A DNA stretch of 64,000 nucleotides from Porphyridium purpureum (lineage: Eukaryota > Rhodophyta > Bangiophyceae > Porphyridiales > Porphyridiaceae). The first letter of the stretch is position 1. Every line of letters starts with the position of its first letter. The stretch covers positions 191,892-255,891 of the forward strand of contig VRMN01000018.1 of the NCBI GenBank assembly GCA_008690995.1, given 5' to 3'. Shown here piece by piece: positions 5,062-59,060 of this stretch. The notes below the pieces were generated by a model. That model saw only the letters and a list, made by a program, of their open reading frames with translations, had not been told where the DNA came from and searched no databases. The position numbers and the translations under genes are program-made.

Positions 5062-5876
5062 TCTTTCTCGCGCGGCCGTCCACGTCCGGACAGGCACAGC
5101 TCGAGCGCACTGTTTGTCGCATGTGAGGCACGAACACGCGCGTCGTCCGCTGGGTGCCCGCACGCACGCGAGCTTTACCGCGACCTTTACCCGCTGCTTG
5201 CTCGTGTCCCACTTGCAGCAACATCGCCGCAAGTACAGTCCAAGCACAATGTACACCCACTGTACCTCATCTACCCTGCAACTGAACCCCGAAGCGGCGC
5301 AGCTTGAGAGGAATCCCGGCAGCCAGCTGACCGCACCAACGTTGGACGCCTTGCCCTTCTTCAGCTGGCACTCGTTCCGTGCCCACAGTCACGATACCCA
5401 CGCCATACACCGAGCCTGATCCGCAGTTTACCTGCTTACCAACACACAGCCTCTTCACACCTTTCGCCACATATTCCTCGAAATTCACTCCCACCATCAA
5501 TCTCACGTCCGCAACCAAGTTTCTTATCAGTTACCGGTTACTCGCCAGCCGTTAGTCGCTAGCCGTTAGCCGTTACTCGCTAGCCGTTAGTCGCTAGCCG
5601 TTAGTCGCTACCCGTTAGTCGCTACCCGTTAGTCGTTAGCCGGTCACTTTTTAGTGTACACCGGCGCTGACCCACATTTGTGTAGTGTACAGCGATGATG
5701 GGGTGGTGGTGTACAGTTATCACTTCGCAGTAGTGTACAGTTCACGAAAACGCAAGCGGCTGGAGCAGGCGCGGATCGAACAAAGTGGGCGGCTTGAAGG
5801 CGAGGTGAAGATGGGGAAGAGAAAGTCCATGGTGGCGGCAGGGTGGTGGTGGTGAGGTAGGAAAGGGTCTTTGGCG
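5062..5876. promoter_or_regulatory. Divergent promoter region, kinase / NDUFB11
   Basis: This 815-bp head-to-head gap contains GTACAGT at 5233-5239, 5711-5717 and 5735-5741, and ACTGTAC at 5259-5265. The related TAGTGTAC core occurs at 5652-5659, 5683-5690 and 5731-5738. A 14-bp tandem repeat lies at 5549-5643. No further gene was recognised. Confidence 0.55.
5549..5643. repeat. Tandem repeat, 14-bp unit
   Basis: About six and a half copies of CCGTTAGTCGCTAG, with variants ending CTAC or TTAG and a 7-bp half unit CCGTTAG between the first and second full copies. Slightly diverged copies continue upstream to about 5533. It sits in the middle of the divergent promoter. Confidence 0.9.
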
Positions 5877-6245
5877 ATGAGTCAGCTGCGTCGCTTATTT
5901 GGGCGATCGACAGGGCTTCGCGTGGCGCTTCGAGGGGACAAGCATGAAGAGGTGTTCAATGAGCCGGGCGGGCGTTTGTTTGGCGAACCGCTGCGGAAGC
6001 CCGGTGAGAAGCGCAAGTGGGACGACTGGGAATTGCCCACGTACGTGTGGATAGTGGGCACCGTGGTCATGTGGTGGGGGTTCAAGCTCGTGCCGAGGGA
6101 AGAGTCGTTCCAGGATTGGGCCCTCGTCGAGGCAAAGGCGCGCCTCAAGGAGCGGGAGGCAAGGCTGGTCGAAAAAAAGAAGGCGCGCGAAGAGACCGAG
6201 CGCCAGTCTACCTATTTTATGGGCCCGAAGGAAGAACTGGAATAG
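5877..6245 (+). CDS. Mitochondrial complex I subunit NDUFB11/ESSS
   Basis: This 122-residue protein matches the ESSS subunit of mitochondrial NADH:ubiquinone oxidoreductase. This is a single-pass accessory subunit of the membrane arm. A short Arg-rich N-terminus (RRLFGRSTGLRVALRG) could be a mitochondrial presequence. It is followed by LFGEPL and the family signature RKWDDWELPTYV (46-57), one membrane segment (about 56-70), and a charged helix with FQDWALVEAKARLKERE. In plant ESSS proteins, as I recall them, the same order RKWEDWELP, membrane helix, then a W-A-x-x-x-A-x-x-R-L helix is seen. The start is ATG at 5877; a TTG two codons upstream was ignored. The 3' end is 35 bp from the convergent gene. 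Confidence 0.75.
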   Translation: MSQLRRLFGRSTGLRVALRGDKHEEVFNEPGGRLFGEPLRKPGEKRKWDDWELPTYVWIVGTVVMWWGFKLVPREESFQDWALVEAKARLKEREARLVEKKKAREETERQSTYFMGPKEELE

Positions 6246-6280
6246 ATCGTACTTTATCGGACTGCGCGGAGCGTTTCGTT

Positions 6281-7042
6281 TTACTCTTCGTTCTCTTCGC
6301 TCAAGTAAATATCTTCCGGCACATCGCCGACGAGAATCGGTACCAGCACCGCGATTTTGTGCACGAGGATGCCGAGAATGGTCGGCAGAAGGGACAACTC
6401 GTCTGGATTCTTGGCCACAATAAGCAGCGTAATGGCAAAGACGCCGATGCGCGTCGCACTCCCCGAGCTCGCACCACCCGTGCCCTCGCTCGCACTCACA
6501 GCGAGACTGTTCACTGATCGACCCAGCAGGACCGTATAAAGCACGCTGGCGGATGCGCCAAGCCCAAAACTCAGCGCCGCCATCGATCCCGCAAATGCGA
6601 ACACGCCCGCGCCACCAAGCGCGCCCAGCGTCATTGTGTCCAGAATCAGCTGCTTCCGGCTCCGGTCGTACGCCTCCAAATCGCGGGCACGCTGGCGCTC
6701 CTTGTCCAGTGCGTTCGAGCTCATCTGCGCCGCACGCCCAAACTTCTTCTCCGCCGACGCAACTGTCACGCTCTTACCCTGGTCTCTCCATGGAGTCGAC
6801 GCCGACTCTTCGCGCTGTAGCGCGGCGTAAGCCTCGCGCACCAGTGCCTTGCTGCGCTTCAGTTCTTCGACCTCGTCGTCCGCTTCTTCCGTCGGCTGCG
6901 CGCTCTTGTCATACATTCGGATGCCTCCGCGAGCTCGTCCCGCACATCTCGGCGTTGCCACGCACGACGAGCATGTCGCGCGCAACCCGAGTGCCCCTAC
7001 TTTACGGCTGGCCTCCACCCAACCCGAGCCCGCAAACGCCAT
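6281..7042 (-). CDS. CGL160/AtpI-like plastid membrane protein
   Basis: This 253-residue protein has an N-terminus of transit-peptide character (rich in Ala, Arg, Ser and Cys, about 1-42), a charged soluble part (43-130) and a C-terminal membrane part with about four hydrophobic segments. The pattern GASASVLYTVLLGRSVNSLA resembles the AtpI/CGL160 domain (G-A-G-x-x-x-x-x-Y-x-R-x-L-G-x-S-V). A final segment near ILVHKIAVLVPILVG precedes an acidic tail. In Arabidopsis, CGL160 helps assemble the membrane part of the chloroplast ATP synthase. That role for this protein is inference from similarity and topology. The start is a true ATG. The upstream neighbour is divergent, with only 72 bp between the start codons. 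Confidence 0.6.
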   Translation of the reverse strand: MAFAGSGWVEASRKVGALGLRATCSSCVATPRCAGRARGGIRMYDKSAQPTEEADDEVEELKRSKALVREAYAALQREESASTPWRDQGKSVTVASAEKKFGRAAQMSSNALDKERQRARDLEAYDRSRKQLILDTMTLGALGGAGVFAFAGSMAALSFGLGASASVLYTVLLGRSVNSLAVSASEGTGGASSGSATRIGVFAITLLIVAKNPDELSLLPTILGILVHKIAVLVPILVGDVPEDIYLSEENEE

Positions 7043-7114
7043 TCCACGACTTGCTTCGATTGTTCCCGTCCAACTTCCGAGACGACCGGTTTGCGGCGAC
7101 AGAAAGTGTCAAGT
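7043..7114. promoter_or_regulatory. 72-bp shared divergent promoter
   Basis: Only 72 bp separate the ATGs of the CGL160-like gene (-) and the pseudouridine synthase gene (+), so the two must share their promoter. No GTACAGT motif is present. Confidence 0.45.
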
Positions 7115-8242
7115 ATGGAGCTTCATCAGGCATTTATATGTGCGGCTTGGACGGTGAGTGCATCCCGTCCGTCCGACCGCGCGAGCATTAGCGACCGCAC
7201 AACAGTGGGTATGCGGCAAAGGCTGCCAGCCGATGCCTTGAGCCTGTTTGGCGACGCGAGTACGGTGCGCGCGGAGCGGTTTCTGAACACTTTGAACGTG
7301 ACGCTGTCACGCAGCGAGTCCGGTGGCAAGAAAGGCGCGGAGCTACTGAGAAGGCGTGTGCTGGAGATTCACTACGCAGCGATTGGAGCAGGTAGCAACG
7401 AGGTGCATCGCGTCAAATCGCCGAAAGACAAGATTCCATTGAAGCACTTTCTGTTGGACGTGCCACGTCGCGGCGACGATGAAAGCGAGGCAGAGCATCG
7501 AGAAGCGTGGCAGAAAGCAGAGGACGCACGCGCACGATCAATTACGCTGGATGGTGTGCCCGTCGGAGATTTGGTGCGCCCAATCCATGTCGCGCTCTAC
7601 AAGCCTGTAGGCTACGTCTGCTCGCGCACGAGCGAACCAGTGTCGCGCGCGGACACAGATTTGGCGGCTGCAGCGGCCCCCGCTGAAACAATATATTCGC
7701 TCTTGCCAGACTTTGCCCAACCAGGAAATGAGCGGAACGGGCTCAAAATGCCAATTGCGTCGATCGGGCGTCTGGACAAGATGGCGAGCGGGTTGGTCCT
7801 GCTAACACAAAGCGGTGGATTGAACCATCTCCTCACATCACCTAGCAGGCACGCGCCCAAGTGCTATCGTGTGGAGCTCGCAGATCCGGTTGAGCCGACG
7901 GATGCGGCGAAGATGTGCCAGGCTTTTGAGAGCGGGAGTGTCGAAATCTTGGAACGTGGGAGAGGCGGCCAGGAGCCGTGCAAGCCGGCTCCATGCACGC
8001 AGCTTGCACGACATGTTTTCGAAGTACTTTTGTACGAAGGAAAGTATCACCAGCTACGGCGCATGTTCGGCTCGTTCGGGCACAAGGTTATAGGCATTCA
8101 TCGGGAATGGATTGGAACCAAACACCACAATCTTGCGATGTGGAACCTCCAAAAGCCCGGCGACTGGAGCCTCGCAAGCATTTACGATCTCGCACTGCTT
8201 GCCGACGTACAAAACGGAGGTCAGCAACCTGACGCCGTCTGA
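7115..8242 (+). CDS. RsuA/RluB-family pseudouridine synthase
   Basis: This 375-residue protein converts uridine to pseudouridine in structured RNA, by family. The catalytic block is visible as IGRLDKMASGLVLLTQSG, whose GRLD Asp is the expected nucleophile. The entry strand VALYKPVGYVCSR and the C-terminal YHQLRRMFGSFGHKVIGIHRE are both typical of the RsuA/RluB/E/F subfamily. The region ERFLNTLNVTLSRSESGGKKGAELLRRR may be a degenerate S4-like RNA-binding part. The family is bacterial in origin and usually acts on organellar rRNA in eukaryotes, so a plastid or mitochondrial target is likely but not shown. ATG at 7115 is the first in-frame ATG; ATG at 7211 is an alternative that would drop 32 residues. 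Confidence 0.85.
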   Translation: MELHQAFICAAWTVSASRPSDRASISDRTTVGMRQRLPADALSLFGDASTVRAERFLNTLNVTLSRSESGGKKGAELLRRRVLEIHYAAIGAGSNEVHRVKSPKDKIPLKHFLLDVPRRGDDESEAEHREAWQKAEDARARSITLDGVPVGDLVRPIHVALYKPVGYVCSRTSEPVSRADTDLAAAAAPAETIYSLLPDFAQPGNERNGLKMPIASIGRLDKMASGLVLLTQSGGLNHLLTSPSRHAPKCYRVELADPVEPTDAAKMCQAFESGSVEILERGRGGQEPCKPAPCTQLARHVFEVLLYEGKYHQLRRMFGSFGHKVIGIHREWIGTKHHNLAMWNLQKPGDWSLASIYDLALLADVQNGGQQPDAV

Positions 8243-8499
8243 AACAAGTTTCTGGCAAGGGGCGGAGACGTAGCCTTGTGCATGGATGCGCGTCGCGTTT
8301 CACCGTGTCTATCGCAGGCCTGCATCATTCGCGAGCAAGTTTCGATCAAACTCTTCTTGCATGTACAGTTCACACCCGTTGGTAACTTGCACGAGAGTTC
8401 CGAATCTTCGGCCAGAGACAACGTGATCTGTAGCCGACAGCTCTCGATATTCCGGGAAAATTTAAGCAGCGATCCAAATCGAAACGACCGCACGCAGAG
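8243..8499. other. Convergent intergenic region
   Basis: This 257-bp gap holds one GTACAGTTCAC (8363-8373), the extended form of the recurrent motif. No gene was recognised. Confidence 0.4.
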
Positions 8500-9270: not shown

Positions 9271-9703
9271 GTCGAGAGCGTATGTATGCTTGTGTAAACT
9301 TGTGTGTGCTCGTCTCTTCCTCTACACCATGTGCACCACCTCCACATCCACTTGAGGGTTCTTACACAAACCCTGTATCTAACTCGAGATCGCAGTTATA
9401 TCTAGGGTTTACTTTCACGGCGTGCGGTACAGTGATCGTCAGCTTGGTTTGCGCGTGCAAGCTTGATATGGAAACCACTGGGGTGTGAACTGTACCATTG
9501 ACAAAATGGCTGCTTTTATAGATGGAGGCGACGGCGGCACTCACGACATGGTCGGCGGCTTGGGGAGCAGGGAGACTTATGCGATGCGGGTTGGGTAAGG
9601 AAAGGTTTGGGGACGAGAAGGTGTAGGGGGAAGGAGTTGCGGGCGTGGGAGTGAGGCCCGTGCGTGGTAGGAGGTGGGATCTGGAACGTGTCTGGTTTGA
9701 ATC
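9271..9703. promoter_or_regulatory. Divergent promoter, fibrillin-like / eS8
   Basis: This 433-bp gap contains GTACAGT at 9427-9433 and, 55 bp on, ACTGTAC at 9489-9495 within GTGAACTGTAC. A TATA-like TATAAAAGCA on the minus strand lies at 9511-9520. The region before the eS8 ATG is G/A-rich. Confidence 0.5.
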
Positions 9704-10786: not shown

Positions 10787-13700
10787 CTAACCTTGTGGAC
10801 TGTATCGATCGCCACGCTGAGGAGTTTTGGCTTCCTCATCAGCACGGTTGCTTGGACTGAACTGCGGGCTTGACGGACTGTACATGGGGGAGCTTGGACT
10901 CATGCTGCCACCAAAGGCCGGCGATGCTGGACTATACGCTGCCGGCGAACTGGGGCTGTACATCGGCGAGCTCGGACTCTGATTGTACGCGTTCGGAGAA
11001 CTCGGGCTGTACATCGGCGAGCTCGGACTCAAGTTACCGCCAAAGGCAGGCGATGCCGGACTATACGCATTCGGTGAGCTCGGACTGTACATGGGCGAGC
11101 TCGGACTTCCACCATACGCATTCGGCGAGCTTGGGCTGTACATAGGTGAGCTTGGACTCCCACCGTATGCATTGGGAGAACTCGGGCTGTACTGCGGCGA
11201 GCTCGGACTCCCACCGTATGCATTGGGAGAACTCGGGCTGTACTGCGGCGAGCTCGGACTCATGTTTCCGCCAAAGGCAGGCGACGCTGGGCTGTAAGCG
11301 GCTGGTGAACTGGGTGAATACTGCGGACTCGATGGCCCGCCAAAAGCCGGACTGGTTGGACTGAATGCAGCCGGCGACGTTGGGCTGTAGCCCGGGCTCG
11401 TCGGACTCATACCGCTGCCATAAGCCGGACTCATGCCGCCGCCATAGGCCGGGCTCGTCGCACTCCCGTAATTCATCCCCGCAGCCATGCCAGCGCCAAG
11501 CCCTCCCGCCATATCACTGCTGTACCCGGGATACGATGGATACCCCTGGCCTCCACCACGGACATCCGGTGAAAAGAAGCCATCCTCCGCACTGTCCACG
11601 TACGGCGAAAAGGCATTACCAGCACCGAATCCACTGTACCCGCCGGGCGTCTGGATGCCCTGATAAGACGGGGTCCTCATGACGTCTGGCCCGGGTGTCT
11701 GCGGCATCATGGGCATCATACCATTTCCGGTCGCTCCCACAACCCCGAACCCTCCGAGCCCCGTGCTGAGTGACGAACCTGCCGCCCCAAACCCGCCGAA
11801 GCGATCAATGCGTTGGGTCTCCTCAGTGCCCTTGATACCAACTACGTCTGACTCTTGCAAAAACAAACCAAACGAACCGGTCCCGAGATTGGCCAACTGC
11901 CCGAGCAGAATATTCTCAGACACGCCCCGCAGACGATCTCGCTCGGCATACATTGCGGCGTCCAGAAGAATCTCGGTGGTCTCCTCAAAGGTGGCCCGCA
12001 TAATGGGACCCGTGTCCGCGCGATTGATACCGTGGCGCGTGATAGACATCAGGTGGCCTCGATAAGTCATGACATCGCATAGGATACCAAGGTGGCGGTA
12101 GTTGACGTACGCACCGTCAAATGAGATCACGTTACGGACCTCGTTGAGCAGCGCTGCGCGCACCGCCTCCACCCCCAATACCTCAAACATCTCCACCACA
12201 TCGTTCGACATGGTCCGCGTGTGATCTACGTCCTCGTGCGCCATAACAGTCAGCAAGTTCACGCCGTCAGTGTCCAACACCCACTCCTTCCCTGTACAAA
12301 AGGCACCCGTTGACTCATCTATGACCGAGATGTTTGGCTCACGCATGAACACCTTTTTGATGGACGGGATCCCACCAAGCGTAAAGTCACCCAACAGAAC
12401 TGCTTCGACCTTCCGCAAGAACAACTCGTCCATATCAGCCTCATCTAGATCACCAGGCGCCACTACGGCTTGTTCACCGCCATCGCCCATCTCTCCTTCC
12501 TCCACGCCGTCCACGTTTTCCTGCTTATGCAAAGTAGAGGTCTTCGGAAGCCGAATGCGAAGCACAAGATTTTCTGCGTTTTCTTCAGACGACATCACGT
12601 GCAAGTCGCCAGCAAAAACGTCAACAATCTTATTTTTGAGAAGGCGCATACTGAGCTTTCGATCCATGAGGGAAACCTTGCTCACCTCAATGCGAAGTAC
12701 CCAGGGACTTAGCTTCGACGCATCTTCATCATCTTCAAACTCATAAAACATGGACACCATTTCCTGATCGGCGCGAATTACCGTGTTCCTGGGGTCTGGA
12801 TCAAAGAAAATCTCGGTGCACTTGACGACATGCACCAGCGTGGTATGCTGCAGTTCTGCCTGGACTTGCTTCGCCTTCTCCGTGTCACGTGCCGCGTGCT
12901 CCTTCAGAAAGACCGTCAGTGAGGGCGTCTTGGGATTCTTAGCAATGTTAATAATTTCCTTCAAGCGGGGCACACCAAGCGTCACGTTCTTGGCTGAGAC
13001 ACCCGCAAAATGGAACGTGTTGAGCGTCATTTGTGTTGCAGGCTCACCGATGCTTTGCGCAGCAACCGCACCAATCATCTCACCCGGGTGCACACGAGCA
13101 TGCGTGAACCGATTCTGGATTTCGCCCAAAACCCACTGAAAGGCGACGCGCGACAACCGATGTTTCACGATCAGCTCCTTGGCGCACAACATCGCGCGCA
13201 AATGAATACGGAAAAGCAATGTTGCATTTTCCTGCGCTTCTTTAGCGAGTACCTGCATATCAGCAAACACTTTCATTCGCCTGGTGAGCGTCACTGCGTC
13301 CACGTCGCCGGGTTCCTCGTCTTCTTCCAGTGCCCAGTTCGGATCTTCTACGTCTTCGCGCGTTTGCTCGTCTACGATGCGCCGCTTTTTGAGGTCTTCA
13401 ATGATCACGCACTTTTCGCACAGTGAAGTCACACTGTCAATAACCTCTTTTGGGCTCAGATCCGACACGGCGTTCTGGCCGATGCTAAAGCGACGCTTGG
13501 CGTTCCACAGCACACGATCCACGTTGACAGCGAGCGGCCATTTAGGCTCACCTGACTTGGAGATCTCTTTCCTCAAAATGGCACGATCAAGCTGGAGGCG
13601 TTTAAATTCGGCCTCGCACGCCGCTTTCACTTCTGGATCGTCGCGCAACTCGTCGATCATGTTAGGTGGGAGATAAGGACGGCCGTGGTGCGAGCCGAAA

Positions 13701-16384: not shown

Positions 16385-17099
16385 TTTGATCGCCTTGATT
16401 CCCAGTCTTCGTTCTCCCGTGCCACGTCTCACCTATTCTACCCCGTTCGTGTCCACGTCCCGCACGCGCTTTTACCTCTCACGCCGCAATACGTCCACCG
16501 TGACGCAATCCCTCCGCCCCGCTGTCCGTACACAAGCCACCGCTCAAGCATGCCACAGGTATTCGGAATCGCACACCGTCAACCCCTCGCCTCACGTAAG
16601 CGGACGCCCTCACGCCGCCTCGGAGCACACCGCGCACTCGCTCATACACATACACACACGCACGCACTCGACCGTAGATGCTTGGGCAGCATAAACAGCA
16701 GCAGCGGCGGCGGCGGCGGCGGCGGTGGCGGTGGGGGGTGGTGGTAAAAACAGGAACAGAACAGCGCACGCGTCCACGTCCTCTTCCGTTCCCCACGTCC
16801 CTTCGTCTTTGGTGACGGCGCGTCCCCCTCGCTTCCCCCGCGCGCGTCCGAAATCATCGACCTGTTCCATCGTGCAGCGACTCATCATCGCCACGCACGC
16901 ATGCCTTCAGGCATTACCATCTTTATTGTAAAATCGCCCTGTTTACGTAGAACGCAAAGCACGTCGCACGATGAGGTACAGTGTGACACCGCCACGCGGA
17001 GCACTGTACACGTATCACTGAGTACAGTGAGAAAAGGTACAGTGTTCGCATTAATTTAATACATTTTTTATACTCGTACAATTTTCAGCGGGAGCCCAT
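16385..17099. promoter_or_regulatory. RPB1 upstream region with four clustered GTACAGT motifs
   Basis: This 715-bp gap lies between the RPB1 start (-) and the MYB stop (-). GTACAGT occurs at 16977-16983, 17022-17028 and 17038-17044, and ACTGTAC at 17003-17009, all within 68 bp. A GGC-rich microsatellite lies at 16703-16733. The motif cluster may belong to the MYB 3' region or act as a distal RPB1 element. Confidence 0.5.
16703..16733. repeat. GGC triplet microsatellite
   Basis: An almost uninterrupted run of GGC triplets with one or two GGT changes, in the RPB1 5' region. Confidence 0.85.
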
Positions 17100-18785: not shown

Positions 18786-19647
18786 CGGATGCGTGTGCAG
18801 GCCTTCTGGTTCGACGTTTGAACCTGGCGTTGTGCCTTACACCGTCATTCTCTCCTTTGCGCACTGGCAAACCGTCTTCCCCTGGTCCCCGCAATCCAAC
18901 GCACGCCACAGCCGGCGTTCCTAGAAGCAGACCTATGCCGTGCTTTGCCTCAATGCCACCCGCCGTATCGCAGACTGGCGCAGTGCGCAGAACGCAGTCC
19001 CAGTACACTCCCCAACCTGTCGCGTCGCGCCTTCCACGGCCCGGTTCTGCGATGATTCCAACGAGTGCTGGTCTGCTCCGACCCCCAGTGCGGCGCTCGC
19101 TTCCTAATCACCTGCAACGCCTCTTTCTCCTCCCTCCTTCAGCGTCTGCTTCCCTCGATTCCTTGTCTCCGTCGGTCGTTTCTTCTTCCATGCCACAAAA
19201 CCCGCAAAACTTAAAAACACTGGCACTGAACCTTAAAATAAAATGAAACCCCACAAAACCAAAACCCCAAAAACTGCCGGATGCGCACAGAAGCGCCGTG
19301 TTCCGTTGACGGATGGCTGTAAAAACGCCTGCGTCCCGCCACGCAAAAATGACTCGGTTTCGTCATTTTTCGTCATTTTTCCTTCGGCGCGCTGCGGCAT
19401 CGTGACGTGGTGGCGGTACTGCGCACTGTACTTCTGTAACACGGGGGGTTGTTTAGCGATGATCGAGCGCTCACGACTGTATGGTTCACAGTACCCTGGG
19501 GGTACACTCGATATTTGTGGGAAGTGAGATAAAAGGTGGGTGTGGTGCGGGAGATAAATTGGGTGGCGCGCTGGCCGGTGTGTGGTTTGGGACGGAAGGG
19601 TGAGAGAAGGAGGAGCACACGCGCGCGTCGCGAACACGCAGCTGGCC
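18786..19647. promoter_or_regulatory. Divergent promoter, MYB / amidase
   Basis: This 862-bp gap contains an A/C-rich part (19195-19275), a direct repeat of TTTCGTCATT (about 19357-19380), ACTGTAC at 19425-19431, and a partial relative (TTCACAGTACC) near 19486. No gene was recognised. A frame that crosses the region has no family signature. Confidence 0.45.
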
Positions 19648-25091: not shown

Positions 25092-25131
25092 GGCTCCCCA
25101 CCACCACAACCACAACCACCCCTCACTACCC

Positions 25132-25166
<35 letters not shown>

Positions 25167-25499
25167 CTCGCCTCCTTCTCAACCTCCGCCAGTTTTAATC
25201 CACCAGCATGAAATAAATAAATTAAAATAATTTTATGTTTATCACCTTCGCTCACTTTTTTAACGGCGAGTGGAGGTTCAGTTGTTTGAGTTGTTTGGAA
25301 AATCATAAAGGAGGGTTGTTTGTATAGTGTACAGTGATCTTGAGAGGTGGGGAGGAGGGGGGAAAGAGAGAAAGGGGGAAAGGAAGACGTACGTGCAAGG
25401 CGTGGTGCGTGGCTGCTGGTGGTGGGGAGGGGTGGCCCGCCGAGTGTGTGGCGTGTGAGGTGGATGTTGATCGGGTGATTGGATGTGGACAGGAGGAGA
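25092..25499. promoter_or_regulatory. Divergent promoter, VAP / FYVE-EHD
   Basis: This 408-bp gap holds a CT microsatellite (about 25134-25165), an AT-rich core (25200-25270) and GTACAGT at 25329-25335 in the context GTGTACAGTGATC. The same GTACAGTGATC occurs upstream of eS8. Confidence 0.5.
25134..25165. repeat. CT dinucleotide microsatellite
   Basis: A run of about 14 CT dinucleotides just upstream of the VAP start. Confidence 0.9.
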
Positions 25500-33353: not shown

Positions 33354-34802
33354 TTACTTGACGGCTGCTTCTCGCTCGGCGCGCGTAAAGCCCGTAAAGA
33401 ACGTGAGCGGTGCGAAGTCTTCCCGCGTGGACGTCGCAGGAGGGAACTGAAAAGTGTAGCGGATCGACTTGTCCCTGCTCATGTCCGAAAGGCTGTCAAA
33501 CGAAAGCCCCTGGCTCTCCTCCTCATCGGCGAGGAGCGGTGATTCTTCGTTCGCTGTCGATGACGACGCGGAGGACCGAGCATTGTACATCACTTCCGCA
33601 ATCACTCCTCGAATTGAAGGCCGTGTCGTCCGGCCGATCGAGAACACCGCGCCGGACGTATCCGCGGCGCGCGTGACGAATCCTTCCCATGGAAACTCAT
33701 CGATCCAGCAGCGAAATGGATTCGCCAGCGCATCAGCGACCAAAAGCCATCCAACGAACAGCAGGTACTCGAGCGCGTACGCGACCAAGACCCAGTAGAG
33801 ATCAGGATCTGGCCACATGCTGAGAGCACTGCTCTGCTTGATTTTGTCCAGACCTAGAGACTCTCTGTTCTCCACCACGCTGGATGAAAAGCCAGCCAAG
33901 ATGACCAGAATTGTGCAGTACGATCGCACGGTGGCCTGGACCAATTGTCGATACATGAGCGGGACGGGCGTGTTTTTGATTGCCACCTGGTGCGCGATGG
34001 CGCTGCGCATGCGCGACGGGTTCTCATTCAGCGACTGGACGTCCATAGCTGTGACACCAAAGCGCGGGTCAAGGGACAGCTCCTTGACAAGAGACGAGTA
34101 CCACGTTAGCGGCAACGCATACTTTGCATTCGCCAGCGCCGGGGGCGCAGCTTCTAAAATATGCTTCTCTGCATGCGTGAGCAAGCCGCGGTCGACCAAT
34201 TGGTTCAAGTTTGCCAAGAAAGAAGCGCGTTTTTCGTACAGCAAGCCGCAACCCAGCGCATGTGCCAGATTAATCCACCGTATGAGCGTAAACTGTACGG
34301 CGGCGACATCGTTTTCACTGAGCGCGGCGGGTGGTTTGGTGTCTGGCTTGATCTCGTCCAATGAAGTTTGACTGAACTCGTGTGTACCGCGGACGTCTTC
34401 GGACGCCCAGAAGGACTCTCGAACCGCATGCGCTGCTGAAATCAACGAGGATACTTGCAACGAGGTGTTGAGCACGACCCCTATCACTTTCCCCTCGGTC
34501 TGCCGCACATCTTGCCAACGACTGAACATGGTACTGGTGTAGAAGCCGAGCATGAGCCCTATTGCAGCCTGGAAGCGAGTATATAGGTGCTGGGTGACAT
34601 CCATCAACGGCAGCGACGCTGCGTTCAACACAAAGTCCGGGAACAATGCCCACGTCAATGTAATCGACAGCGCGCCCAGCAGAATCAGCATGAGCCACTC
34701 CAGCCACAGCACCTGCCAAATACTGCCGCGCCACTGGCGCACCATTCGCCACCAGCGCAGTTTCCATGGCGGACCGTACGGATCCGTATATGTCACTGCC
34801 AT
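33354..34802 (-). CDS. Bestrophin-family anion channel
   Basis: This 482-residue membrane protein belongs to the bestrophin/UPF0187 family of pentameric anion channels. The N-terminus MAVTYTDPYGPPW matches the compact bestrophin start. The first hairpin has LMLILLGALSITLTWAL, and RFQAAIGLMLGFYTSTMFSR carries the conserved aromatic/Arg end of the second helix. Later hydrophobic pairs are near YCTILVILAGFSSS and YALEYLLFVGWLLVA. They are followed by the family motif NPFRCWIDEFPW (compare N-P-F-G-x-D-x-x-D). The C-terminus is Ser-rich and hydrophilic. Algal and plant bestrophins carry chloride or bicarbonate across thylakoid or plasma membranes. No obvious transit peptide is seen. ATG at 34802 was chosen over an upstream GTG. 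Confidence 0.85.
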   Translation of the reverse strand: MAVTYTDPYGPPWKLRWWRMVRQWRGSIWQVLWLEWLMLILLGALSITLTWALFPDFVLNAASLPLMDVTQHLYTRFQAAIGLMLGFYTSTMFSRWQDVRQTEGKVIGVVLNTSLQVSSLISAAHAVRESFWASEDVRGTHEFSQTSLDEIKPDTKPPAALSENDVAAVQFTLIRWINLAHALGCGLLYEKRASFLANLNQLVDRGLLTHAEKHILEAAPPALANAKYALPLTWYSSLVKELSLDPRFGVTAMDVQSLNENPSRMRSAIAHQVAIKNTPVPLMYRQLVQATVRSYCTILVILAGFSSSVVENRESLGLDKIKQSSALSMWPDPDLYWVLVAYALEYLLFVGWLLVADALANPFRCWIDEFPWEGFVTRAADTSGAVFSIGRTTRPSIRGVIAEVMYNARSSASSSTANEESPLLADEEESQGLSFDSLSDMSRDKSIRYTFQFPPATSTREDFAPLTFFTGFTRAEREAAVK

Positions 34803-35380
34803 CGCCACTGCTCCCAGAGGTCCCCACTTGTTTTTTCTCCTCCACAACACCTCAACCTCGCACCTACCTCACCGGCAACCACAAAAAACAACCACCTCCG
34901 ATTACTCGCGACTGTACTCACCGGTACCGAATCTCGAGCTTTCATGACATTGCAATGCAAATTTACTCTTGATGATGCCATAAGAATGATCATTTCTGTT
35001 TAATGCTGCCATTTGAATGCGCATTTCATCTTGTTCATGCCATTGGAATGAGCATTCCGTTGAATAATGACATACAAATGGATATTTTACCTGGTAAATG
35101 ACATTGAAATAAGCATTTCGTCTTGATAATGACATGTGAATGAGCATTTCACCTCAGTGATGTCAATACAATGCAGCATTTCATGGACGTTTGTGAAAGC
35201 GCGCCAAAAGACGGCCCGAACGATTTCTGGAGCTGGGTGGTTTCGGGGCGCGGGCTGGAGACGGGGTCGTGTTGATTGGGAGACAAACGTGAGCGTGTTG
35301 GAGAGAGGTATAGCCACACGGAGGGACAGAGAACGAGGCGCACACGCGTCGGATTCTCCGGAGCCTGCAGATACTTCGTG
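34803..35380. promoter_or_regulatory. Divergent promoter, bestrophin / RAD21, with 31-bp array
   Basis: This 578-bp gap contains ACTGTAC at 34911-34917 and an eight-copy 31-bp repeat array at 34941-35189. The remaining 190 bp before the RAD21 ATG shows no further element. Confidence 0.55.
34941..35189. repeat. Eight-copy degenerate tandem array, 31-bp period
   Basis: The ATGACAT-like element begins at 34944, 34975, 35006, 35037, 35067, 35098, 35129 and 35160, giving spacings of 31, 31, 31, 30, 31, 31 and 31 bp. Each unit carries ATGACAT, then a GAATGAGCATTTC-like part with dyad character, and then a variable CTTGA end. The array is AT-rich in a GC-rich genome. The first copy contains ACATTGCAATGC, which recurs exactly at 44256-44267. 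Confidence 0.9.
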
Positions 35381-43845: not shown

Positions 43846-44419
43846 CCTCGTCTCCTTCTCTCTCACACACTGGCGAAAGCACTGCGCCACACGCAACCAC
43901 CACCCCGAGGTCACGTACCCCCAAAAGGGGAGTCACGGACCGCCGCAGCGCGCGAGTTCGGCGCGCAGCAAGAGAAGAAGAGGACGCGAGCCGAGACACA
44001 ACCCGAATGCCTGCACGTTTCAACGCTGGGGCGGCGGCGCTTTCTCTCCACGCCGCAAGCCCATCAACGCCAATCGCAGCAACCCACAAACCGAACAAAC
44101 GCCGCGCGCCTACCAGCGCAACCTCCAGCGAGTTTCTAGCAAAACGCGCTCGTTTAGAAGGAGCGATGCAACAGTACACTGGACGGACTGAACATAGCGC
44201 TGTACACCTATGCATGTACAGTAGACTCATAAATGGTACAGTTGGTGCTCTAATTACATTGCAATGCGTATTGCGTGAGTACAGTCTGGAGATTGATCGG
44301 ACTGCGTCGAGATCGCCCGTGCGTGTGGCGTGGCCGGTGCGGCGCATGGAGTTGTTGCGCTGGCGACGCGTTGGTGGCAGTTGGAGAGGGAGGAACGAAG
44401 GCTTTGGAGGGCGCCCGGC
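43846..44419. promoter_or_regulatory. Divergent promoter, EGY-like / CPP1-like
   Basis: This 574-bp gap between two plastid-type genes holds GTACAGT at 44216-44222, 44236-44242 and 44279-44285. ACATTGCAATGC at 44256-44267 is shared exactly with the first unit of the 31-bp array. Confidence 0.55.
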
Positions 44420-46353: not shown

Positions 46354-46841
46354 CCTTTTTTTAACTGCCGAATTGTTAAATTGCTGTTTATATGAAAATA
46401 ACCCATTCTTATCATGTTGTGAACTGTACCAGAGGAACCCTAGACAAGCGCCAACTCGGGCGCGGTGTGCAAGTTGCGCGTGCGGGGCTGAGGGGAAGCG
46501 GGAGGAGTGGTTCGACGTCGACGACGACCACGATACTGACGACGACGACAGCAGCAACCGTCGCGACGACGAGCGCGGGCGCGGCGAGCGACAAAGGGGA
46601 ACGAGTTGCACGCGCGGGGAAACGAGCTCAGCCAGTGCGTTGACGTGGCTGTACAGGTACGCCCGACATTGAATTGTCGGAAAAGACGGATACTGGCTGA
46701 GCGTGGCGAGGCGCGAGACGACGTTGTTGGGTTTGGGCGGAACGCGCGCGGAAAGGCTCTCCTTGTCTGCGGAAGGGCCATGCGTCTTTATGGGAGACAA
46801 GTTGGACCGGTGATTAATTATTGGAGCTCTCGCTCGTGATC
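46354..46841. promoter_or_regulatory. Intergenic region upstream of protein kinase
   Basis: This 488-bp gap has an AT-rich start and GTGAACTGTAC at 46419-46429, the minus-strand form of the extended motif GTACAGTTCAC. The centre is rich in CGACGA-type triplets. No gene was recognised. Confidence 0.45.
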
Positions 46842-48515: not shown

Positions 48516-49260
48516 ATATAAACCCGCCTCCCGCCTCGCTCCCAAGAACGCAACGCCGCGGTACAGTATACACTGTACCTTCCCCCCTTCTCTAAAAATA
48601 GGCGCAGTACAGCTCGTTCCACAGCGCGGTGTCAAGACGCGCGCGCCGTTACAAACCGTCGACACCCCCCGCGGGTCGCATGTTGGCGTATTGGCGTATT
48701 GGCGCGCACACTCACGGTCCTGACGAATCGACCACGTTGGCACGTTGAGGCACGTGAAACAAAAAAAAACCCACGCACGTTCATGAAGTACTTGTCCAAA
48801 ACGCGCCAACAACGTGAAAAATTAAAACAAAAGCAAAAAAACAAAAAAGCAAGCAGCAGGAGGCCGGTTTCGGAACGTGGGTCACGGAGCGTGAGTGTGA
48901 GCACAGCGTGAACACAAAAAACCATGCAAAGAAATTAAGGGCCAGGGGGGGAAATGGCCTGTGACCAAATTTGGGTGGAGTGGTGTGCGTCCGATTTGAA
49001 TTTATTGGCCAGGCGGCTTGTGGTCAAAATCATAAAGCGGACAAGGTGGCCGTGGTGGGATTTCGCACGCGGGGTGACGGAATGTACTTAAGCACGGAGG
49101 ACGTCGATCCGGTTTAAATTCGTATGAGGGATGTGAGGCGGAGAAAGACGTAGGCAAGGTGGGGAGGTGGGGAGGTGACCTGTTGCCGTGCGGTGCGGTG
49201 GAGCAGCAGCGGCGGGGGCGGGGGTTGCCGGGTGTGGACGTGTGGCTGTGTGGGGGAAAG
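48516..49260. promoter_or_regulatory. Intergenic region with paired GTACAGT palindrome
   Basis: This 745-bp gap contains the paired motif at 48560-48579, an A-rich run with many AAAAC/AAAAA blocks (48760-48855), and a G/T-rich stretch before the next ATG. A 70-codon Lys/Arg-rich frame at 48699-48911 was not accepted as a gene. Confidence 0.5.
48560..48579. promoter_or_regulatory. Inverted GTACAGT pair, 4-bp spacer
   Basis: GGTACAGTATACACTGTACC: eight-base arms GGTACAGT and ACTGTACC flank ATAC. It lies 45 bp after the kinase stop. It could be a dimeric protein site or an RNA hairpin in the 3' untranslated region. Confidence 0.6.
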
Positions 49261-50289
49261 ATGGTGCGTGATGATGCGCGCAGAGTTCAGCCGCGCCGGC
49301 TGGTGGGGGCGCTGCCGCTGATGATCTTGCTCGTGGTTGCCGCGTGCAGCACGCACGCGCACGCGCAGTGCGCGCCAGGCTTTCAGCTGTTCCCGTACGT
49401 CATTTCGAGGTGGGGAGACACGAGCACGGACGTCCAGAATTGCAATCAAGTGTATATCCAGCGGCAATGGGAAAAGATGGACCTCGGAATGGAAGTCGGT
49501 GGCTTCACTTTCCCGCCCACAAACTGGTTCGCTACCGATTTTGATGACTCCTCGTGGGGGGCGGGCATCTTACCATTTGCAGGCAGTATCCAATGCGAGG
49601 AAGAGTTTGCGGTGGCCGTGCCGGGCTTCCCTAACATCGGCGTGGCGAACACGGTCTGGGATGCAAATGACGACAACAACCCAAACGACGGTCGTAACAG
49701 TTACTTGGCCGTGCGCCTCAAGTTTTTCCTGGCGCCAAATCTTTTCTTCCGGACCGAGTTCTTCTCGCTGGCGTTCATCGTGGACAATGATCTCATTGAA
49801 ATTTATGTTAACGGGCAAAGCCAAACGTTTGATGGCGCGGTCGGGCGCGAGGGATGCTCTGGAGTGACCCAAATCGTATCAAACCAACTGGATAGTTCGT
49901 TTCTCGTACCGGAAAATAATGTCATTGCCTTTTTGGCCGAAGACCGAGGTTCGCAAAGCTATCTTAACTACGAGCTCGTGGTGAGCGTATGCGAGCTGGC
50001 ACCCGTGGCGAACTTCACGTGTTCACTGACCACACCTCCTGCTCAGCCGTGCATGAGACCGTGCTCATCGGATACATCGCAGTGTGAGCTTCAACCAGAC
50101 TGCTTGCTAGAAGGCCTGGTTGCGGACGAAAACGGAAACTGCCTGTGCGAATTGGTGGACGAAGTTATCTGCCCGTCAATCGAGCCAGGCTTTATCCCTG
50201 GTGTTTGCTACCCCAAGACCACGAGACAGAGCATCAGGCTTCTTTCGTGCGACAACACCGGGACTGAGTTATGTCGCGCGCCGTCCTAA
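49261..50289 (+). CDS. Secreted protein with jelly-roll-like domain and Cys-rich C-terminus
   Basis: I do not recognise a named family for this 342-residue protein. It starts with a basic n-region and a hydrophobic core (LVGALPLMILLVVAACS) ending AHAQC, a good signal peptide. The main part (about 70-240) has FATDFDDSSWGAGILPFAG and, later, FSLAFIVDNDLIEIYVNGQ. These recall galactose-binding jelly-roll folds, in which D-D-S-x-W and I-Y-V-N-G are typical. The last 90 residues hold many Cys (CSLTTPPAQPCMRPCSS, CLLEGLVADENGNCLC), which suggests disulfides. No transmembrane helix follows, so it is probably secreted or a cell-wall/matrix protein. The start is ATG at 49261. Confidence 0.6.
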   Translation: MVRDDARRVQPRRLVGALPLMILLVVAACSTHAHAQCAPGFQLFPYVISRWGDTSTDVQNCNQVYIQRQWEKMDLGMEVGGFTFPPTNWFATDFDDSSWGAGILPFAGSIQCEEEFAVAVPGFPNIGVANTVWDANDDNNPNDGRNSYLAVRLKFFLAPNLFFRTEFFSLAFIVDNDLIEIYVNGQSQTFDGAVGREGCSGVTQIVSNQLDSSFLVPENNVIAFLAEDRGSQSYLNYELVVSVCELAPVANFTCSLTTPPAQPCMRPCSSDTSQCELQPDCLLEGLVADENGNCLCELVDEVICPSIEPGFIPGVCYPKTTRQSIRLLSCDNTGTELCRAPS

Positions 50290-50433
50290 ACCGGCCTTTG
50301 CTCTCATTCCACTGTGGCCGACAAAGATGGGAAAGGCCACCTCAGAAATTAACATGTATTTCACAAAGTCCCAGAAAGTAAAAAAAATTATATTAACCAA
50401 CTCTCGAGTGCGTGCATTCGATCCTTCCAAAAC
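50290..50433. other. Convergent intergenic gap
   Basis: A 144-bp 3'-3' gap containing an A-rich run (about 50380-50395). No gene was seen. Confidence 0.4.
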
Positions 50434-53244: not shown

Positions 53245-53843
53245 CGTTCACGCCAGCCTGTCTTCAAGTCTTCGTGTCCTCGTGTCCTGTTGTCCTCGTG
53301 TCTTCTTGTTTTTTCCCCGTGTCCGCGGGACCGAACAAATGACCCTCGAAACTGCTCAGACCGAATCCTCTCTCGCTCTACTCTTGACCACACCAGAAGT
53401 CTCTTTCTGTCTGTCTCTGTTTCAAGCTGCGTCTGCTCTGCTCCGTGCCGCCACAACCGCGTCGTGCTCGCCGCTCGCCTTCCTCCTCCACCGTCTCGCG
53501 CCCAACATGCACACACACACGCACACCTGCCTCAGGTTCTCCGCACAACCTTTTCCATTTCGCGCGCCGTTTTCGTTCGCGCCAAAAAATGGAAAACGGC
53601 GCGGCGGCGCAAACCGAACCGGAAAGTACAGTGCAATGGTGTACCTCTGTTTAGCGCCCCAGTTTATGAAGATGCGTATATCATGCGGCATTGTTTATGT
53701 ACAGTGAGATACTGTACCTGAGGGGTTGAAGCCGAAGTGCGCGCGACGGCGGACGTGTGCGGGGGTATGAGACAGAGAGAGAGAGAGAGGAAGGGGAGGA
53801 AGGAGGGAAGGCAGAGAGTGAGGAAGGTGGTGAGGCAGAAAGG
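53245..53843. promoter_or_regulatory. Divergent promoter, WDHD1 / eIF3d
   Basis: This 599-bp gap holds GTACAGT at 53626-53632 and a tight inverted pair at 53699-53717. A TC-rich stretch with repeated CGTGTCCT (about 53270-53310) lies near the WDHD1 start, and a purine-rich run (53765-53840) precedes the eIF3d ATG. Confidence 0.5.
53699..53717. promoter_or_regulatory. Inverted GTACAGT pair, 5-bp spacer
   Basis: GTACAGTGAGATACTGTAC: perfect 7-base arms around GAGAT, 127 bp upstream of the eIF3d ATG. It has the same architecture as 48560-48579, here clearly in a promoter position. Confidence 0.6.
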
Positions 53844-55883: not shown

Positions 55884-57827
55884 TTACGTGCACGGCTCTA
55901 GCGCTAGCATAGACTTACCGCATGTGGTGCAAAGAAGCTTCTTGTTCCTGATGCTCATGTCGACGAGCGCATGCCTAACATCCGCGAGCGCAAAAAGTAC
56001 GCGTGAAATCGACGGGTGGAGAACGTCCATCAGGCGGCGCGACTTGAGCAAGGCGACCTCGACATGCTTTTTCCACAGCTCCACAATACCTTTCCACGAC
56101 CTCGGCACAAAGCGCGGTTCAGCCACAAACGGCCCCTCAAAGTCGTGCGTGCGGTACGTGAAGCAACCAGCGGCTTGAAGATCTGGCTTGCCGCAGCATC
56201 CCCACCGACCTCCCCGCAATGACTGTTCATCCTCGATCACAAAGGATTCCACAGCCATGTGCACCACGCAGGGGCCGTCTGTACTGCCAAACTCGTCAAC
56301 AAAGCCACAACGAAGACACCGCCTCGCGCCGATCGAGCAGCTCTCCCTTTCTGCGCATTTCCAGAGTTCAGATTGCCCGCAGCAGCTAAACGCTTCGTCT
56401 GGATACTTTTCCACTGCTCCAGTGTCTGACAGAATGAGGCGAGTAAAAGCAATGTTGATACCCTCGTGAAAATGGCAGCTCCGCTGTCGCCGCAATCCCA
56501 CGACCTCATGGGATCCATCTGGTAAGTTTGTCACGCGGACCAGGCCTTTGCACCTGGCACAAGCAAGCTTTGCCTCAGATTCCATCTCTCGAAACAAGGC
56601 CCGGAATAGGTCCGTAATACGCATCTTCACTGGAAAGCCGGTATCGCGAACTGCGCTCCCTTGGATCAGCGTCAGATAACCCATGATCTTGTCCACCATT
56701 TTCATTACATCCAGCAGAGTCTGCGTGCCAATTTGATCTGCTTCAACGCGTTGCTGCGTTGGTATGTATGATGGCGGTATGTCATCAGCAAAGGTATGGC
56801 TCCTGCTGCTCTGTCCAGCCCGCACAGCATATTCCCCTTCGGACACGCGTTCTGGTGTGGCGGTTCCCGGTCGCCCTGATTCCAGGGGGTCATCAAATGG
56901 TTCCGGTGCATGTGAATACGGCATCGGCTCACGAAATCTTTGGCCCGAGGAGTGCATTTCCCTCTCTGCTCTTTGCTCGAAGAACTCAGCATCCACATCG
57001 TGCTCCCCAGGCACCCACATTCCAGTGCCATGGCTTCTACGCGTCGCATGCGTAAATGGACCGTACGCGTTCTCGTAGCCCGGAAGCACGCCACTTACGA
57101 AAGCTCGAGCATTCCCGTTTGACTCGCGGTCGGCTGTCTCGCTTTCGTGGTACTCGGGGCGGTACTCGGGGCGGTACTCGGGGTGGTACCCGGGGCGGTA
57201 CTCAGTGTGGTACTCGGTGGGAGCCGAAAGAGCTTCATCTGGGTGCATGTAGCGCATTTGGTCACGACTGAAACCCCCATCCCAGGCCTGGGAGGAGCCA
57301 CGACTCGTTTCAGCGTCGTAATGCCGTGCATTCTCATGCGCCCGCGCTTGATAAGGATATCTGCGAATCCGGCCTCCTCCAAGGATTCCGGTGGGCGTAT
57401 GTGACTCATCGTGCCGCCCGACCGACGGCCCACACAGCGGGACCGCAGCAGAAGATCTCGAGGTCACATGATAGTCGCGAGCGCCACGGTGATCTAGCAG
57501 ATCATAATTGTCTGTGGAGCTGAATTCTGCTCGTTCATTCCAATCATCATACCGCTGCATCACTCGTGCACTCTCGTCAGGCACACGAAACGGCCTTGTC
57601 CGAGCCCGCCAAGACTCCCGCTGCAGTTCGGGCCCGGCAAGATACTCAGTTTCCCTGCTTCTGTCTGGATAATTCCGCACCCTTTTGTCGCCGCTGGTGT
57701 GGCCAGCTTGCCCCACTTGGAAGGCCTCACCCGCTCGCGCATGGTGGCTGACCGGACGCGGTTCTCGCCTGTCACGTACAATGGCTCCACGAAGCGGACC
57801 GTGGCCGCGGTAAGGGCCGGATTGCAT
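55884..57827 (-). CDS. Cys/His-rich protein with PEYR repeats, family unknown
   Basis: I do not recognise a family for this 647-residue protein. The N-terminal two thirds are Arg/Tyr/Gly-rich and disordered, with short tandem repeats YRPGYHPEYRPEYRPEYH. The C-terminal 250 residues carry paired Cys and His: CARCKG, CHFHEG, FSCCGQSELWKC, CLRCGFVDEF, CVVH, RWGCCGKPDLQAAGC, and a terminal CTTCGKS. The pattern C-x-x-H, W/F-x-C-C-G, C repeats and recalls CHORD-like zinc modules, but the spacing does not match well enough to name. The frame stays open to an ATG at 58172, but that would overlap the divergent YchJ-like gene. ATG at 57827 avoids overlap and is my choice; 58010 is an alternative. Confidence 0.55.
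   Translation of the reverse strand: MQSGPYRGHGPLRGAIVRDRREPRPVSHHARAGEAFQVGQAGHTSGDKRVRNYPDRSRETEYLAGPELQRESWRARTRPFRVPDESARVMQRYDDWNERAEFSSTDNYDLLDHRGARDYHVTSRSSAAVPLCGPSVGRHDESHTPTGILGGGRIRRYPYQARAHENARHYDAETSRGSSQAWDGGFSRDQMRYMHPDEALSAPTEYHTEYRPGYHPEYRPEYRPEYHESETADRESNGNARAFVSGVLPGYENAYGPFTHATRRSHGTGMWVPGEHDVDAEFFEQRAEREMHSSGQRFREPMPYSHAPEPFDDPLESGRPGTATPERVSEGEYAVRAGQSSRSHTFADDIPPSYIPTQQRVEADQIGTQTLLDVMKMVDKIMGYLTLIQGSAVRDTGFPVKMRITDLFRALFREMESEAKLACARCKGLVRVTNLPDGSHEVVGLRRQRSCHFHEGINIAFTRLILSDTGAVEKYPDEAFSCCGQSELWKCAERESCSIGARRCLRCGFVDEFGSTDGPCVVHMAVESFVIEDEQSLRGGRWGCCGKPDLQAAGCFTYRTHDFEGPFVAEPRFVPRSWKGIVELWKKHVEVALLKSRRLMDVLHPSISRVLFALADVRHALVDMSIRNKKLLCTTCGKSMLALEPCT
57145..57215 (-). 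repeat. 12-bp coding tandem repeat (PEYR)
   Basis: About six imperfect copies of GGTACTCGGGGC, which encode the PEYR/PEYH tetrapeptide repeats of the Cys/His-rich protein. Confidence 0.8.
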
Positions 57828-57946
57828 TCTCTGTTTCACCAACCCACGAATCCACTTCAGTGGGTTGTCGTTAACACCTAAACTGCCTTGCCGAAACGAA
57901 TTCGACGAGTGTGCCGGGCTCTTGAACGTCCGAGTAGGAGCATAAG
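57828..57946. promoter_or_regulatory. 119-bp divergent promoter (if downstream starts are right)
   Basis: The gap between the chosen ATG of the Cys/His-rich gene and that of the YchJ-like gene. No recurrent motif was seen. The true promoter may be internal if the minus-strand gene starts further upstream. Confidence 0.35.
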
Positions 57947-58555
57947 ATGGCTCGGCACACAGCAGCTCTGGCCTTCTCTGTATTGTGGGCGCCGCACTCG
58001 GGCAGGCCATTAGCGCTTGGAAAGGCGGCTGTTGCGCGGAATATCGCCCAATCGCGGCCACGGCGTGCGCCTCTGAGCCTGAGCAGGCCAAGGCGGAGCG
58101 ACATCGTCGTGGGCGCGGCAAAAGGGTTTGGTGCGCCGCGAGTAAAGAACGTGTCTGTGGTGACGTGCCCATGTGGCGGGCCGCTCTACGCTGAATGTTG
58201 CGGGCGACTGCACACCGCGACTTCGCTGGCGGATTTGAGCGCGTTTGGTGCGGAGGAGATCATGCGCGCGCGTTATGCGGCTTTTGCGCTGGGTCTTCCG
58301 GACTTCATCATTCTCACGACGCACCCGGAAAACATATTTTTCCAAGCGGACATGAGCACGTGGAGGCGCGAGCTTAAGAGCTACCTCAAGAAAGTGCAGT
58401 ACACGGCGCTCGAGGTCTTGAACGTGACGGCCGACGCCGAAGAACCTGTGGTGCATTTTCGAGCGCACTCCAGCGAAGGCGTCCTGGAGGAGAAGAGCAA
58501 ATTCATGCGACACGACGGCGCATGGCTCTACAAAAGCGGTGAGCTTAAAGTTTAA
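57947..58555 (+). CDS. YchJ-like protein with SEC-C-type zinc motif, probably organellar
   Basis: This 202-residue protein has a presequence-like N-terminus (about 1-55, many Arg, Ala and Ser, no acids) followed by CPCGGPLYAECCGRLH, a SEC-C-like zinc-binding motif. The rest follows the YchJ/UPF0225 NTF2-like domain: AEEIMRARYAAFALGLPDFI, LTTHPENIF, then a beta-rich end with VVHFRAHSSEG and EKSKFMRHDGAWLYKSGEL. The family is common in bacteria, and its biochemical role is not settled. Bacterial ancestry plus the presequence suggests a plastid or mitochondrial location. ATG at 57947 is the only start upstream of the zinc motif. Confidence 0.75.
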   Translation: MARHTAALAFSVLWAPHSGRPLALGKAAVARNIAQSRPRRAPLSLSRPRRSDIVVGAAKGFGAPRVKNVSVVTCPCGGPLYAECCGRLHTATSLADLSAFGAEEIMRARYAAFALGLPDFIILTTHPENIFFQADMSTWRRELKSYLKKVQYTALEVLNVTADAEEPVVHFRAHSSEGVLEEKSKFMRHDGAWLYKSGELKV

Positions 58556-58604
58556 ATGGACTGTCATTTAGTCTCTATCTTCATCATCTATCTTTCCTCC
58601 TTTT

Positions 58605-58850
58605 TCAAGCGCTGGCGCTGACCTGCGCACGCACTGACTTGTCTGGTGAAACCTGCTCAAACTCGTCCTGGTCATAGATGACACGAATGGTCAACGAGCA
58701 GCTCGGGCAGGTTCCAATTTCCTCTCCCGCACGGAGCTCGTCCTTTGTGATTCGAAACACGTCGCCGCATGGACACGGGTAGGTGAACGCATTCAGTGCG
58801 TCGTCCCATTCCATGTCCTCGATTTCCACCTCATCATACACCGTCGCCAT
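58605..58850 (-). CDS. DPH3: DPH3/KTI11 CSL zinc-finger protein
   Basis: This 81-residue protein is DPH3 (KTI11). It supplies electrons for diphthamide synthesis on elongation factor 2 and is also needed for Elongator tRNA modification. The CSL zinc motif is complete: [20 protein letters not shown], then [15 protein letters not shown], giving four Cys ligands. Length and order match the family. The start is ATG at 58850 ([16 protein letters not shown]). The open frame upstream is longer but has no family similarity. It is convergent with the YchJ-like gene at a 49-bp distance. Confidence 0.95.
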
Positions 58851-59060
58851 CCTGCTGCTCCCTCCAGCCGCGCCGCGTCCTTCCCCCGCATTCACTTGCC
58901 GCGCTGCACAACACGCGTCGCGCCGACAACCAGAACAAAGAAGGCGCGACTTTCTGCGAGAAATACCTTGCTCGGATATGTACAGTGATGAGGTACAGTC
59001 CGTGCGGATCCATCGTTGCATTTTTTATTTTTTGTTTTGGTCTTTGGTGTTCGATGTTTC
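58851..59060. promoter_or_regulatory. DPH3 upstream region with two GTACAGT motifs
   Basis: This 210-bp gap carries direct copies of GTACAGT at 58980-58986 and 58993-58999, 13 bp apart and about 130-150 bp from the DPH3 ATG. Confidence 0.5.

Follow-up and report, generated by a model that had tools for sequence, protein, structure and literature searches.

The heptamer GTACAGT is a real and abundant intergenic site in the red alga Porphyridium purpureum, judging by its counts, and it is very probably a protein-binding promoter element. In all likelihood it forms the core of a 9-10 bp site, located promoter-proximally in a sizeable minority of genes and recognized by a single sequence-specific protein whose footprint is that of a monomer. 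The stretch analyzed, hereafter the window, comprises 64,000 nucleotides (positions 191892-255891) in the terminal part of contig VRMN01000018.1 (C24) of assembly GCA_008690995.1, which holds 22.16 Mb in 46 contigs. As placed by the protein relatives of its eIF3d, the nearest being those of Porphyridium aerugineum (54% identity over 93%) and Erythrolobus australicus (58% over 78%), the source alga is a porphyridiophyte.

Abundance and extended sequence of GTACAGT

The window contains 29 exact copies of GTACAGT on its two strands, against a mean of 2.81 (standard deviation 1.65, maximum 8) in 100 dinucleotide shuffles. Genes were called as intron-free open reading frames (ORFs) picked by codon score, 105 on C24 and 23 on stretches of another contig, C1; one call, 57947-58555, was replaced manually with 55884-58172. 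By these calls, 25 of the copies are intergenic and 4 are coding. All 25 intergenic copies listed in the original prediction were recovered, two of them one base away (16976 for 16977 and 17037 for 17038), and the gaps that it put at roughly 11 kb amount to 11,659 bp. The in-frame copies that it had noticed, in the RPB1 tail (10877, 11084 and 11633) and the bestrophin gene (34292), turned out to be exactly the four coding ones. The window is richer in the word (29 per 64 kb, 0.45/kb) than the genome as a whole (6320 per 22.16 Mb, 0.29/kb).

Counts were extended to a pooled sample of 306 kb, made of C24 and 50 kb of C1 (78.6 kb intergenic, 218 kb coding). This sample includes the window, as well as C1 stretches selected because GTACAGT copies were already listed there. 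It contains 86 intergenic and 20 coding copies, or 1.09 and 0.09 per kb, which is the unequal density that the original prediction called for, and GTACAGT has the top z among all 7-mers. A synonymous-codon shuffle gave 18.4 coding copies, close to the 20 observed; thus, coding DNA is at background. The part of C24 outside the window (50.6 kb intergenic, 120 kb coding) served as the independent test set. There, 41 intergenic copies were found against 3.5 expected. With the retrotransposon region masked, 34 were found against 3.0 expected, next to 10 coding copies, so that the difference between intergenic and coding DNA holds there too. GTACAGT ranked third by z in this set, or fifth after masking; the words ahead of it were CA and CT/GA simple repeats and, after masking, also the overlapping word GGTACAG. 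CA and GA/CT simple repeats are likewise strongly over-represented in the intergenic DNA of the sample. Genome-wide, the 6320 copies compare with 3088 of the reversed word, which is a rough control since coding DNA is counted in, and AGGTACAGTG occurs 501 times against 68 for its reversed control.

Alignment of the 86 intergenic copies gave the extended site A[G/A]GTACAGT[G/T]. Position -2 is A in 47 of the 86; position -1 is G in 44, A in 23, T in 19 and never C; position +7 is G in 43 and T in 27, one or the other thus accounting for 70 copies. Beyond two or three bases from the core the flanks are random, with no clear preference, and therefore the copies are not those of a copied repeat. 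Most single-base changes to the core fall to a coding-like level in the pooled sample, with a mild excess kept by some variants (e.g. GTACAGC, GTACACT, GTACTGT and TTACAGT). A specific core, degenerate flanks and no wider conserved repeat are what is generally seen in a transcription-factor site.

Placement and packing of the sites

Distances were taken to the called ATG, and positions were compared with a within-gap randomization of 75 sites in 119 gaps, excluding the retrotransposon region, gaps containing N and the sample edges. The first 50 bp upstream of the ATG held no site, where 8.3 were expected. The commonest range was 101-250 bp, with 35 sites against 22.5 expected (p = 0.0005). When sites were dealt across gaps, convergent gaps had 2 against 8.6 expected (p = 0.005), or 6 when the retrotransposon region is kept in. 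The highest density was that of divergent gaps (35 sites in 22.0 kb, versus 2 in 7.7 kb for convergent gaps). In the independent subset (29 sites, 70 gaps), the first 50 bp were also empty (2.9 expected, p = 0.04). Orientation is free, with 48 same-sense and 54 opposite gene-site pairs. Copies number 1 to 5 per gap where present, 85 of 129 intergenic stretches having none, and their distance to the ATG is spread over more than 100 bp. The exact core lies within 600 bp of the ATG in 44 of the 121 called genes, that is, in 44 of the 94 genes with a gap of at least 150 bp. The site is thus orientation-free, promoter-enriched and depleted in convergent gaps, as for general regulatory factors, its positional preference being weaker in the independent subset alone.

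The sites are also clustered. In the pooled sample, 32 pairs lie at most 60 bp apart, where 10.0 were expected. Genome-wide, for spacers of 0-30 bp and with retrotransposon copies and tandem arrays included, the count is 890 for direct pairs (10 in the reversed-word control), 245 for inward-facing pairs (4 in the control) and 303 for outward-facing pairs (1 in the control). The spacers follow definite rules. Only 4 of the 303 outward pairs have spacers of 0-4, all of them of 4, where about 49 would be expected from an even spread. Inward spacers of 3-5 account for 71 of 245 pairs (about 24 expected), and direct spacers of 0-6 for 338 of 890. Among 100 listed close direct pairs, spacer 0 was seen once, spacer 1 never and spacer 2 in 34, and the start-to-start distance was below 9 bp in one. 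The base preferences of the site strictly bar outward spacer 0 alone, which would place C at -1; therefore, the missing outward spacers 1-3 are best read as a protein clash. On the A side, judging by these counts, bound proteins would reach two to three bases past GTAC, and less far on the T side; the footprint would be about 9-10 bp, with neighbors favored near one helical turn.

Three further observations concern grouped sites. Tandem arrays with GTACAGT in a 13-bp or 9-bp unit lie on contigs C2 (2243048-2243119) and C1 (2124919-2124952). Contig C9 and C2 at about 625-675 kb have matching site pairs in the same order, which suggests that C9 duplicates part of C2 in rearranged form. Triple direct sites on viral contigs (at least 120 stretches) often have lengths that are multiples of three, as from in-frame coding repeats, and nothing was drawn from them.

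In a post hoc scan of all 6-mers, the strongest word near the sites that is not built from the site itself was ACCCTA (9 versus 0.6 expected). Of the 20 intergenic copies of this word, 10 begin no more than 40 bp from a site, at least one of them overlapping the site. Genome-wide, AACCCTA followed by GTACAGT after 0-30 bp was found at 77 places, against 1 for the reversed control; spacers 0-1 are absent and spacers 2-4 occur in 15 of the 77.

Around integrases, some of the site pairs are repeated at a distance of 6-12 kb. The flanks fetched at these pairs are pairs of long terminal repeats (LTRs), 99-100% identical, with integrases between them in four families. A TATA-like box lies downstream of the last site in the element sense; measured between start positions, the distance is 19 bp in family k, 66 bp in i, 64 bp in m and 89 bp in j. 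In family c, for which one end was fetched and LTR ends are unverified, the distance is 28 or 137 bp. These five families were picked because they carry site pairs, and five of five with this arrangement is not a frequency. No blastn similarity was found among the site-carrying LTR families. That the site lies upstream of the TATA box, and apart from it, is the best hint that it may be an upstream promoter element. Many near-identical LTR copies (C1, C2 and C24) suggest recent activity of such elements; 150 integrase matches were scored of 231 candidates.

When a doubtful ORF of 122 aa (5877-6245) is counted, 15 of the 25 window copies are at 111-220 bp from an ATG; for the copies upstream of RPB1, at 46423, at 48561/48572 and at 58980/58993, the distance is 416-823 bp. 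The earlier statement that most copies are in divergent promoters hinges on the same ORF: with it, 15 of the 25 copies are in divergent gaps and the statement is true, whereas leaving it out lowers the figure to 11. The copies in tandem gaps number 9 with this ORF and 13 otherwise, and one copy is in a convergent gap. The sites and related features of the window are as follows.

5233..5265: two sites, 5233 (+) and 5259 (-), 174 and 200 bp upstream of kinase ORF 2599-5061 (-)
5711..5741 (+): two direct copies, 139-163 bp upstream of doubtful ORF 5877-6245 (+), or 652-676 bp upstream of the kinase ORF
8363..8369 (+): lone site between convergent genes; the other 24 copies are all upstream of a called gene
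9403: telo-box-like AACCCTA, close to the sites at 9427..9495
9427..9495: two sites, 9427 (+) and 9489 (-), between a PAP-fibrillin ORF (-) and ribosomal protein S8e (+)
10877..11639 (-): three coding copies (10877, 11084, 11633) in the RPB1 C-terminal tail, not counted as sites
16976..17043: four sites, 594-655 bp upstream of RPB1 ORF 10787-16384 (-)
19425..19431 (-): site, 220 bp upstream of an amidase ORF (+) and 642 bp upstream of a Myb-domain ORF (-)
25329..25335 (+): site, 168 bp upstream of an EHD/FYVE ORF (+) and 240 bp upstream of an MSP-domain ORF (-)
34292..34298 (-): copy within the bestrophin coding sequence, likewise left out of the site count
34911..34917 (-): site, 111 bp upstream of the bestrophin ORF (-) and 467 bp upstream of RAD21/REC8 (+)
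44216..44285 (+): three direct copies, 138-201 bp upstream of a CPP1-like ORF (+) and 373-436 bp upstream of an M50-peptidase ORF (-)
46423..46429 (-): single copy ahead of a kinase ORF (+), at 416 bp, with telo-box-like AACCCTA at 46437
48561..48578: pair of sites facing inward across 4 bp (GTACAGT-N4-ACTGTAC), with ORF 49261-50289 (+) 686-697 bp downstream
53626..53717: group of three sites, 130-215 bp ahead of the eIF3d ORF (+) and 384-469 bp ahead of the CTF4/WDHD1 ORF (-)
53699-53717: inward-facing pair with a 5-bp spacer, within the group upstream of eIF3d
58980..58999 (+): two direct copies with a 6-bp spacer, 810-823 bp upstream of ORF 55884-58172 (-)

Among the genes listed, the RPB1 tail (10787-12100) has many YSPxSP-type repeats with spacers. 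The ORF at 25500-27674 is EHD-type dynamin-like; in addition to its EHD_N, dynamin, DUF5600 and EH domains it carries a FYVE zinc finger at the N terminus, an unusual-looking fusion. A protein search with RAD21 returned no close named relative apart from the window's own entry, and an Rfam scan of the window gave zero matches at the gathering threshold.

Proposed mechanism and alternative explanations

In the mechanism that we propose, one protein would bind double-stranded A[G/A]GTACAGT[G/T] in either orientation, often loading as two to five neighboring, non-overlapping molecules, with spacings near one helical turn favored. Once bound, it would help to establish transcription of the adjoining gene, or genes, at a core promoter distinct from the site. 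Some LTR retrotransposons carry the same site upstream of their own TATA box. The enrichment, the extended motif, the clustering, the spacing rules, the scarcity near the ATG and the order of site and TATA box in the LTRs read are observed in the sequence, whereas binding and activation at GTACAGT are predicted. The binder is probably a general factor, such general use being suggested by the unrelated functions of the flanked genes. In its widest form, which we put forward tentatively, a large share of porphyridiophyte promoters might run via one lineage-specific general factor, perhaps a three-finger C2H2 protein, in cooperative non-overlapping arrays about one helical turn apart and partly with a telo-box factor, several LTR families having independently recruited such arrays.

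Several results weigh against a promoter-proximal factor site. The pooled rank and the peak in ATG distance depend partly on the window and on the chosen C1 stretches; in the independent subset, the 101-250 bp range held 11 sites against 7.4 expected (p = 0.09), which is weak alone and in the same direction. Some sites, a minority, are 400-820 bp away from the closest called ATG. Codon-usage components and GC3 revealed no link of the site to expression level in 86 genes, the 25 with a site within 300 bp not differing from the others (p 0.22-0.52). Host gaps contain few TATA-like words, and these keep no constant distance from the site (in 53 genes, 4 lie downstream of the last one); a TATA box was rejected as partner in host genes on these two grounds. 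The LTR of family n (1198-aa ORF), the commonest among the scored integrase matches, has no exact site as read on C24. At least 8 of the first 50 places with inward spacers of 3-5 share one LTR family's sequence, and the pair totals include retrotransposon copies and tandem arrays. Confidence was kept despite the dependence on chosen stretches because the genome-wide pair counts are independent of the window and of the C1 choice.

Among the alternatives, it is quite possible that GTACAGT is an architectural or general regulatory factor site, which clears nucleosomes or insulates divergent neighbors and does not activate directly. Models for such factors are those of the Reb1/Abf1/Rap1 or BEAF/M1BP type. 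The density in divergent gaps argues for it, as do sites that are orientation-free, clustered and untied to a TATA box in host genes. This explanation overlaps with that of a promoter-proximal activator site and differs from it in mechanism.

A condition-specific factor controlling one large regulon (for example a cell-cycle, light or nutrient response) seems rather unlikely. It would account for the exact core being near just 44 of 121 genes and for the many intergenic stretches without any copy. However, the nearest genes in the window are functionally unrelated (kinases, ribosomal protein S8e, eIF3d, RPB1, amidase, bestrophin and CPP1-like), and about one gene in three would be a large share for a regulon.

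The original prediction allowed for either a core promoter element or a transcription-factor site. The concentration upstream of genes agrees with the latter. For the former, the heptamer itself would position RNA polymerase II, like TATA or an initiator, and both the excess in gene-upstream DNA and the empty first 50 bp upstream of the ATG would fit. This half of the claim found no support: the two orientations are equally used, a gap can hold up to 5 copies, the copies are scattered over more than 100 bp, and the five site-carrying LTR families read have a distinct TATA-like box downstream. A core promoter element is thus very improbable, and it was rejected on orientation, copy number and the separate box.

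Marginally less likely still is a signal at the RNA level (splice, polyadenylation or RNA-binding-protein site) or a target of DNA modification. UGUA-containing words do resemble some RNA-protein sites, but the site is strand-symmetric relative to genes, favors upstream over convergent gaps and is not enriched in coding DNA over the synonymous shuffle; DNA modification would leave the avoidance of closely packed outward pairs unexplained. Dispersed repeat or retrotransposon debris is the least credible source, for although several LTR families carry site pairs and 7 of the 86 intergenic copies of the pooled sample fall in the retrotransposon region, the outer flanks are random, the excess survives masking and the site is common to LTR families without blastn similarity.

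As a kind of element, a promoter-proximal factor site is known; its motif and packing rules appear new within the literature searched. No title about red algae was among the matches listed for GTACAGT, and little was found on the promoter grammar of non-cyanidial red algae among the matches listed. The accessible part of a paper on Porphyridium promoters (PMC10866757) gives no promoter sequence motif, "transcription start" occurring 0 times and "motif" once, for HDEL. GTACAGT is a concrete, abundant and testable element in a transformable alga, and could help to build better transgene promoters. It opens questions on the binding factor, on a role as general promoter organizer and on its use by retrotransposons, and the missing spacings predict footprint and cooperativity.

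Candidate binders and comparison with known systems

At a guess, the binder could be a C2H2 zinc-finger or a MYB-type protein. The usual footprint of a three-finger C2H2 protein, one possible candidate, is 9 bp and would match the 9-bp minimum spacing. Myb-domain matches number 111 in the genome. The MYB core is AACNG, and the minor site form GTACAGTT resembles it, reading AACTGTAC on the opposite strand, whereas the form with G at +7 (CACTGTAC) is the commoner one (43 versus 27).

SBP-box or copper-response sites of green plants and algae share the GTAC core of the red-algal site, but they need C before it (CGTAC), and C precedes GTAC in none of the 86 red-algal intergenic copies. The SBP-type word CGTACAGT has 0 intergenic and 8 coding copies in the pooled sample. 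An SBP binder was rejected because the CGTAC rule does not hold. A search with PF03110 (SBP) gave zero matches in the genome, and zero in all 14 control genomes too. In the accessible part of a survey (PMC4827209), SBP is placed among the green-lineage-specific families, and P. purpureum is reported to have 199 transcription factors, with C2H2 fingers as the largest family (30.2%) and AP2/ERF not detected.

The frequent close neighbor of GTACAGT, AACCCTA, is telo-box-like. The plant telo box is linked to ribosomal genes. According to the accessible part of PMC3022908, this box (AAACCCTA) acts with partner elements in promoters of cycling-cell genes. The difference is that the partner word in the red alga is GTACAGT.

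Finally, the sites of yeast Reb1, Abf1 and Rap1 and those of animal housekeeping promoter factors have a specific core of 7-10 bp and are common in divergent, TATA-poor promoters. The red-algal site differs from them in its sequence, but resembles them in having a specific core that is used in either orientation, often clustered, in divergent and TATA-poor promoters.

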